Shown here piece after piece: positions 37,646 through 58,767 of a stretch of 64,000 nt of DNA (position 1 is the first letter of the stretch; the number at the start of each line of letters is the position of its first letter). The stretch comes from Niabella yanshanensis (lineage in GTDB: Bacteria; Bacteroidota; Bacteroidia; Chitinophagales; Chitinophagaceae). The position numbers and the translations under genes were made by a program. The DNA lies in the NCBI RefSeq assembly GCF_034424215.1, contig NZ_CP139960.1, forward strand, positions 1,178,001 to 1,242,000, in the 5' to 3' direction. The notes below the pieces were generated by a model, which was not told the origin of the DNA, searched no databases, and saw only the letters and a program-made list of their open reading frames with translations.

Positions 37646-37701
37646 TTAACCAATCAACCCTGTCTGCCGCCAGGCAGGTTTTCAACCTATCAACTACTAA
37701 A

Positions 37702-57645: not shown

Positions 57646-58671
57646 CTAAAAATATTTTAGACCAATGGCCTCCCGCACGGCGCTAATTGTCTTATCAGCA
57701 CTTTCAGCTGCTTTTTGCGCACCCACTTTCAAAATGATATTCAACTCGGCTTCATTAGCACGAATATCCCTAGCCTTCTGCCGGATAGGAGCAATATAGT
57801 TGACCATATCTTCAGCCAGTTGCTTTTTCAGATCGCCGTAGCGTATATTGCAATTATCATAGTCTGCCTCAAATTTATCAATGATATCCTGCTGACTTAC
57901 CAGTTTCATCAGGTTAAAAACATTCTCAATATAATCAGGTTTTAAACTATTAGGCTCTGTCGGTCCCGAATCAGTCTTTGCCTTCATAATCTTTTTACGG
58001 ATCAGGTCATCATCATCCGAAAGATAAATAGTAGCATATTGATTTTCGCTCTTACTCATTTTACCCGCTCCGTCAAGGCTGGGTACTTTCAGCAGTTGCT
58101 CGCCAAAATTAAAAGCCCGGGGTTCCGGAAAAACATCACCGTAACGATGATTAAACCGGTTGGCAAAAGTACGCGTCATTTCCAGGTGTTGCTCCTGGTC
58201 CTTACCCACCGGTACCAGCTGAGCACGATGAATCATAATATCAGCGGCCATTAAAACGGGATAAGTTAGTAACCCTGCATTCACATTCTCAGGTTGTAAA
58301 CGTACTTTGTCTTTAAAGGTGGTCGTTTTTTCCAGCTCACCTTTATAAGCCATCATATTTAGAAAAAGATACAATTCGGTCGTCTGGGGTAAATCACTCT
58401 GGCAATATAAAACCACTTTATTCGGATCAAGACCGCAAGCCATATATTCTGAAGCTACGTGCAGCACATTTTCTTTCAGCTCTTTGGTATCCGGATGGGT
58501 GGTAAGAGAATGCAGATCAGCGATAAAAAAATAGCAGTCATATTCATTCTGCATCTTCACATAATTACGTAACGCGCCAAAATAGTTTCCGAGGTGTAAA
58601 TTACCTGTAGGACGAACGCCGCTTACTACTATCTGCCTGCCAGCAGGCAAAATACCGTTATTATTGCTCAT
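57646..58671 (-). CDS. trpS: Tryptophan-tRNA ligase with LPAGRQ insert
   Basis: The open frame runs to 58701, but the ATG at 58671 (MSNNNGILPAGRQIVVSGVR) is likely the start, giving 341 residues. The HIGH-type motif is GNLHLGNYFGAL (about 24-35) and KMSKS is in GAGKMSKSENQ. It charges tRNA-Trp. The N-terminus contains LPAGRQ, encoded by the palindrome TGCCTGCTGGCAGGCA(G) immediately before the conserved IVVSGVRPTG strand. Relatives that I recall lack these residues, so it is a small repeat-encoded insertion. The rest of the protein looks complete. Confidence 0.95.
   Translation of the reverse strand: MSNNNGILPAGRQIVVSGVRPTGNLHLGNYFGALRNYVKMQNEYDCYFFIADLHSLTTHPDTKELKENVLHVASEYMACGLDPNKVVLYCQSDLPQTTELYLFLNMMAYKGELEKTTTFKDKVRLQPENVNAGLLTYPVLMAADIMIHRAQLVPVGKDQEQHLEMTRTFANRFNHRYGDVFPEPRAFNFGEQLLKVPSLDGAGKMSKSENQYATIYLSDDDDLIRKKIMKAKTDSGPTEPNSLKPDYIENVFNLMKLVSQQDIIDKFEADYDNCNIRYGDLKKQLAEDMVNYIAPIRQKARDIRANEAELNIILKVGAQKAAESADKTISAVREAIGLKYF
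58633..58649. repeat. Dispersed palindrome in frame within trpS
   Basis: TGCCTGC (58634-58640) and GCAGGCA (58643-58649) are perfect inverted arms around a CA centre. On the coding strand it reads TGCCTGCTGGCAGGCA(G) and encodes LPAGRQ in the frame used. Related units lie at 1146-1157 (TGCCGGCCGGCA) and 37664-37677 (CTGCC-GCCA-GGCAG). Confidence 0.75.
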
Positions 58672-58767
58672 AGGGCGCGAAGATAAATATGAAATGAGCA
58701 TTAAAATACGCTGTCCTTGTTTTTTATTCCTCCTCCGTCCTTATTTCGATGAATGGGCCTTCGTTTG

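Follow-up and report, generated by a model that had tools for sequence, protein, structure and literature searches.

The question raised by this locus is how a palindromic stretch came to be read in frame at the start of trpS, the gene for tryptophan--tRNA ligase, in Niabella yanshanensis. The gene lies in a 64,000-nt stretch of the N. yanshanensis genome (the window). An earlier note on this DNA had described a 7-bp inverted repeat with a 2-bp centre encoding LPAGRQ in the trpS frame, and we found it as described (Table 1); taken as a whole, that observation was confirmed in part. The 21-nt stretch at the trpS start is probably an old, partly eroded copy of a dispersed 20-bp palindrome (CCTGCCTGCCGGCAGGCAGG and variants, forming one hairpin) that entered the gene in frame; we give this reading as a whole a probability of roughly 0.75.

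Table 1. Features of the trpS locus and of the palindrome family (window coordinates).
Feature	Position	Strand	Basis or remark
trpS, tryptophan--tRNA ligase	57646..58671	-	341 codons from the ATG common to relatives; PF00579, 231 bits; alignment with 33 homologues
Seven-codon (21-nt) insert ATT TTG CCT GCT GGC AGG CAG, encoding ILPAGRQ	58633..58653	-	comparison with congeners; missing from 58/76 sampled trpS genes
Perfect inverted repeat TGCCTGC-CA-GCAGGCA, TGCCTGCCAGCAGGCA	58634..58649	.	7-bp arms, 2-bp centre
Eroded 20-bp element that includes the inverted repeat	58632..58651		16/20 bases match the family consensus, 4/20 are off
Second family member, CCTGTCTGCCGCCAGGCAGG	37659..37678	+	intergenic by flanking ORFs; 0 mismatches to CCTGYCTGCCGNCAGGCAGG

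Read on the minus strand, trpS starts with the ATG at 58671, followed by MSNNNGILPAGRQIVVSGVRPTG. A second ATG lies upstream in frame at 58701, and in the numbering from this upstream ATG the PF00579 match begins at residue 23. The folding energy of the coding-strand 36-mer RNA at the palindrome was -10.8 kcal/mol (z -1.42). A 7-bp inverted repeat is unremarkable by itself; this one deserves attention because a dispersed family of such palindromes exists.

The family has a consensus form, CCTGCCTGCCGGCAGGCAGG, and a form found in the N. yanshanensis genome, CCTGTCTGCCGNCAGGCAGG. Ten matches to TGCCTGCNGGCAGGCA with at most 3 mismatches were counted in the window, palindromic sites being scored on both strands, versus 1.69 on average over 100 shuffles (sd 1.59, maximum 6). 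Of the two related intergenic palindromes proposed earlier, the one at 37664-37677 is part of a full family member between genes; membership of the other, at 1146-1157, is doubtful, because the site 1146-1161 (TGCCGGCCGGCAGGCT), despite only 2 mismatches to the 16-base core, has no match within 5 mismatches of the 20-base consensus.

The whole genome, a single contig of 5,543,186 bases, gave a divided answer to the question whether the palindrome recurs elsewhere. The exact trpS 16-mer, TGCCTGCNNGCAGGCA, occurs once in these 5.54 Mb, but the genome's own form, TGTCTGCCNNCAGGCA, is dispersed, with 10 exact copies and 7 one-mismatch sites, the trpS site among the latter (1 for the reversed control). 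With up to 2 mismatches, TGCCTGCNNGCAGGCA matched 57 sites per strand, the reversed control 4. Nine of the ten exact TGTCTGCCNNCAGGCA copies have CC and GG ends (L063 has TC), and nine lie outside ORFs of at least 90 residues, L056 overlapping an ORF of 164 residues. Three one-mismatch sites (L064, L065 and L068) look like chance, since they lie inside ORFs and lack the CC/GG ends. A ribosomal protein cluster (L139, G000:C1:4800000-4818000) holds three exact copies and one one-mismatch copy between genes, near those for the ribosomal proteins L22, L5, S8 and L15. The trpS copy itself matches its own genome's variant poorly and, judged by the four bases off the consensus and by eroded forms in two congeners, is not a fresh one.

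Beyond this genome, the exact 20-mer CCTGCCTGCCGGCAGGCAGG was found in 41/395 sampled Bacteroidia genomes, the reversed control in none; one of these genomes, G334, holds 43 copies. Both the symmetrical form and the N. yanshanensis variant occur in several Chitinophagaceae genera, and most of the copies examined were intergenic or in dispensable DNA. The unit is sharply bounded: among 93 distinct copies, many of them from the genomes G030 and G035, pairing ended at the 20th base, and at the first outer position 33 were paired versus 32.7 expected. Direct repeats of 1-4 nt at the same 93 copies stayed within the shuffle range, i.e. the copies stand without target duplication. One side showed a preference for GARA, with an oriented score of 141.6 at 105 sites versus 62-86 in ten shuffled controls, the side being picked by fit in the controls as well. 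The element would enter between two adjacent bases, leaving its target unduplicated, and would do so beside a GARA-like flank more often than chance.

Precise insertion of 20 bp was observed at several sites. A larger dispersed repeat of G030 exists in two states, an empty one, in which GGAGAGG directly adjoins AATC, and a filled one, GGAGAGG-20 bp-AATC. In the ftsY gene, G512 differs from G342 by exactly 20 bp between GAGAAAGAAAAAAA and GATTGG and, 6 nt further downstream, by a single additional base (by eye). An empty duplicate spanning the junction was detected within 1.5 kb of 24/137 copies; nine of them (L191, L192, L197, L208, L241, L247, L271, L278 and L339) are gapless, direct and, by eye, not simple repeats, and the rest are partly simple or dispersed repeats (e.g. 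L270, L273, L079) or near-identical viral contigs (L310, L337). Several of the empty/filled pairs consist of a partial copy of a tRNA gene, or of the carB 5' end, adjoining the intact gene. At carB (L208) the palindrome sits within the truncated 5'-end duplicate immediately upstream of the intact gene, and at icmF, in two species of one genus (L203, L244), the same arrangement was seen by eye. The partial tRNA duplicates were noticed by eye. The idea that tRNA genes are the targets was set aside, ARAGORN, applied to the emptied flanks, having predicted a tRNA across the junction in 1/137 copies (L332). Element copies also break genes, among them that of a tyrosine recombinase near its end (L206) and an ORF6N gene (L240, by eye). 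The larger repeat of G030 (L140, L141) starts with CGTCATTCCGAGC, is possibly a REP of the CGTC type and often contains the 20-bp palindrome.

In trpS, the insert is distributed patchily. Among 76 Chitinophagaceae-type trpS genes, 18 have the 7-residue insert at the same place and 58 are without it. The 76 genomes comprise 30 relatives (57 had a match), 40 family genomes (285 of 294 had a match), picked mostly for a match reaching far into the TrpS N-terminus, and loci from a scan; because of this selection the carrier share is not an estimate for Chitinophagaceae. The scan of the contig collection for GGCAGGC before a TrpS motif returned 29 stretches, namely 12 trpS genes with the insert, two TrpS without it and chance-like remainders; it supplied 12 trpS loci, six of them from genomes already read. 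The 12 scan carriers are labelled as Niabella (two), Ginsengibacter hankyongi, Ferruginibacter (two) and bins assigned to Chitinophagaceae, Chitinophagales and Sphingobacteriales, and the family genomes added G326, G076, G109 and G231. All 18 carriers are in frame; 17 have 16 residues before SG and one (G109) has 17. Contrary to the earlier note, relatives do not start directly before VSG: 32/58 non-carriers have nine residues before SG. Presence and absence alternate even within the genus: congener G003, whose TrpS is 92% identical, reads MSSNKDIVVSG and has no insert, G012 (MSNNKETLSTGRQVVVSG) and G001 (MSTNNEAVQTGRQIVVSG) have it, as does G011 of another clade (MDKKSATRPAGRPVVLSG), whose 20-bp palindrome, CCGGCCTGCCGGCAGGCCGG, is perfect. 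The remaining congeners whose TrpS was read are without the insert.

The same peptide was met in other conserved proteins, in agreement with the earlier note, which has LPAGRQ-like peptides recurring in unrelated Bacteroidota proteins. The in-frame check took in 97 copies, of which three, all in one other Bacteroidia genus (g141), lie in frame in conserved genes. The products matched FtsY (357.5 bits) and Dxr (335 bits) above the respective cut-offs, that of NCBIfam for FtsY, and MqnC with 381 bits, below its cut-off of 428, the locus being cut. Five relatives have FtsY without the peptide (EKEKKIGTERL versus EKEKNLPAGRQGLVTGRL with the insert), and relatives likewise lack it in Dxr (KKHIAILG versus KTHLPAGRQVAILG) and MqnC (IQKQGSEHI versus IQKKALPAGRQGSEHI). 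A glycosyltransferase of g141 has LPAGRQG as its last residues. All in-frame cases use the LPAGRQ frame, and the other two frames would add cysteine. Copies in essential genes of several lineages keep the frame by 20 bp plus one extra base, and the product would carry LPAGRQ in a tolerant loop or tail, which in TrpS would be the N-terminal tail before the first strand.

The codons of the insert bear on its history. At positions with the same residue in different clades, insert codons were identical in 174/205 pairs (85%) versus 5785/12636 (46%) in the TrpS body, the pairs not being independent. Different codons for the same residues, the observation named in advance as speaking against an inserted mobile palindrome, did not appear for Pro (23/23 identical between clades), Gly (29/29) and Arg (46/46), and none of 43 P/G/R columns of the TrpS body reached a codon identity of 0.9. 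The Gln codon was identical in 49/49; uniform Gln codons may, however, be met in the TrpS body too. The Ala codon at the palindrome centre was free (10/20). The test covered 12/18 carriers, found by protein searches through residues matching N. yanshanensis TrpS and not through codons; six carriers were left out, those found solely by the GGCAGGC scan with its bias to an intact 3' arm. Such identity indicates shared or constrained DNA and not merely a kept peptide; the insert may have arrived repeatedly, its allele may have spread recently, or the DNA may be constrained. Conservation differs between the arms of the trpS palindrome, being much stronger in the 3' arm, and a simple hairpin constraint fails to explain this difference. 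The best-kept residues of the insert are GRQ.

On the tree of the TrpS body (75 rows), carriers are scattered: at least 11 changes are needed, or 22 losses if there was a single gain. A single carrier clade was rejected (AU p 7e-40; 67 rows, 16 carriers); eight loci that the first motif had missed were added after this test and brought the number of carriers to 18. Support is weak at many inner branches of the TrpS trees (28/64 open), and L039 (G002, with a broken trpS) was omitted from them. Two further observations pull in opposite directions. The net insert is 21 and not 20 nt, and by eye nearly all carriers have the extra base at one and the same position, an argument for a single origin of the insert allele. 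Empty trpS genes, on the other hand, read GAAA followed directly by TAGTAATG, which fits the preferred GARA flank and, together with the 17-residue case (G109), pleads for repeated entry. Weighing these, we lean slightly towards repeated insertion into trpS and away from a single old entry that was lost many times or was passed around by recombination.

A single ancient in-frame insertion (20 bp and one further base) in the ancestor of a large Chitinophagaceae group, followed by vertical descent and many losses, would account for the same register and 7-codon net length in 18 carriers and the same total length in 17/18; some non-carriers, e.g. G189 (GSRQIVM), also resemble partial remnants by eye. 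This history is nevertheless unlikely, given the 22 losses needed on the tree used, many restoring exactly nine residues, and synonymous sites far less diverged in the insert than in the rest of the gene. The scattered carriers, the identical register and the young-looking codons would be accounted for if homologous recombination at the trpS 5' end had carried one or a few insert alleles from species to species, but the TrpS proteins of carriers in other genera share only about 70% identity with that of N. yanshanensis and the codons beside the insert differ between carriers, so the recombination tracts would need to be very short, and we regard such spread as quite improbable. A conserved or convergent peptide whose codons are palindromic by chance would agree with the well-kept GRQ residues, yet it is strongly disfavoured by the Pro, Gly and Arg codons shared across clades, by the lack of the insert in most of the relatives sampled and by one carrier (L118) whose insert is identical to the dispersed 20-mer. 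An assembly or library artefact, a thought prompted by the many drafts and metagenome bins in the sample and by the copies that break genes, is the least credible, as N. yanshanensis is one contig, carriers occur in 18 genomes, variants are lineage-specific and copies lie in a 3.86-Mb contig of G447.

A mover for the palindrome was sought. A Y1 single-strand transposase would be expected to leave unduplicated targets beside a preferred flank, and the mover may be an enzyme of such an IS200/RAYT-like manner, which takes single-stranded hairpins as its substrate and does not duplicate the target. No palindrome (at most 4 mismatches) was found within 1.5 kb of Y1_Tnp genes at any of 27 loci, which represent 27/40 matches in eight genomes (7/7 in N. 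yanshanensis and 20/33 in seven palindrome-bearing genomes). A RAYT adjoining the palindrome was ruled out at these 27 loci; a RAYT may act on it from a distance.

In an all-against-all comparison of 2072 ORFs near copies, GIY-YIG genes formed the largest cluster (7 loci). They were detected within 700 nt of 9/137 copies, 0/87 control loci and 0/16 loci of N. yanshanensis's own family copies. The HMM used was home-made, with two of the seven cluster loci as its seed, and flank lengths differ between the compared sets. The genes encode nucleases of about 80 residues and lie near the copies L191, L192, L197, L247, L274, L278, L339, L077 and L088; at L191, L247, L278 and L339 the gene stands between a palindrome-bearing partial tRNA gene and an intact copy of that sequence. 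Nine of 137 copies are too few for GIY-YIG as a general mover. The Y1-type footprint and the GIY-YIG proximity are leads, not answers. The earlier note had proposed that a mobile or self-propagating palindrome can enter an essential gene in frame, be tolerated and add a peptide: its core holds, as the element looks mobile, lies in frame in trpS and adds a peptide, but "self-propagating" goes beyond these results, no enzyme having been tied to the element. Overall, the interpretation is partly supported.

In-frame palindromes are already known from Rickettsia and for tagged REPs. Rickettsia palindromic elements are tolerated within ORFs, and one paper reports expression of R. conorii proteins with an N-terminal RPE-1, a longer palindromic insertion, and assigns RPE-4/6 to CGTC repeats (PMC3733652). 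The element resembles them in lying in frame in conserved genes (those for TrpS, FtsY, MqnC and Dxr) and is set apart by description, being 20 bp long, untagged and from another phylum. GTAG/CGTC REPs are described in the same source as dispersed short hairpins, mostly intergenic, with some in ORFs, including those of tRNA synthetases (PMC3733652); CGTC repeats have been reported from Bacteroidetes and are described as being without a dedicated transposase. Like REPs, the element is a short, many-copy dispersed hairpin, mainly intergenic; unlike them, it has no tetranucleotide tag at the hairpin foot (GTAG, GTGG or CGTC within 2 nt of the foot 8 times at 127 distinct sites versus 8.3 in shuffled flanks), and the RAYT association of GTAG REPs was not seen at the 27 Y1_Tnp loci with their 1.5-kb flanks. 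It differs from MITEs in lacking target-site duplication (93 copies) and IS terminal inverted repeats, and in measuring 20 bp in all. IS200/IS605 elements also insert without target duplication, and ours does so beside a preferred short flank, a likeness of outcome and not of membership. Their subterminal hairpins are given as about 20-25 nt long and bound by a Y1 enzyme (PMC6006769). The element, in contrast, is a single hairpin with neither a transposase gene nor a pair of ends. Byp elements and GC clusters of fungal mitochondria are small hairpins that enter coding regions; the element differs in showing no sign of bypassing, the reading frame running through it. In the open-access literature searched, the LPAGRQ peptide gave no match, the element's sequence strings gave only an unrelated kinetoplastid match, and no paper came up that ties GIY-YIG to duplication and insertion at a tRNA gene in Bacteroidetes; broader searches led to papers on REPs and Rickettsia, among others.

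The insert is presumably translated, as the frame is kept in all carriers. In an AlphaFold2 model of TrpS built from 34 sequences, residues 1-10 had pLDDT below 50 and the first strand began at residue 14, so that the insert (residues 7-13) is predicted to join a flexible tail to the catalytic fold. Its likeliest meaning would be tolerance and not a new function.

A wider picture can be offered tentatively. The 20-bp hairpin may rank with the smallest units of mobile DNA, a candidate GARA-preferring single-strand enzyme moving it from elsewhere in trans; on several independent occasions it may have hit one codon of an essential tRNA synthetase, and across Bacteroidia it may have altered parts of essential proteins, sometimes landing in a partial duplicate of the target that spares the real gene. 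A defined 20-bp unit with exact boundaries, empty/filled pairs and a recurrent place in an essential enzyme lets the conversion of selfish DNA into protein be studied as a natural experiment with replicates. It also gives the search for the mover a concrete form, through direct comparison of copies with adjoining empty duplicates and of species that differ by one precise insertion.

Two minor observations concern the surroundings of the copies. In IMG/VR, 33 stretches had at least one exact 20-mer, and the viral-collection contig IMGVR_UViG_3300037242_000417 (29.5 kb; L328, L335, L336) carries six exact copies. A gene for a 23S rRNA-intervening sequence protein recurs near copies, at L201 (PF05635) and at L313 and L334, which cluster with L201.
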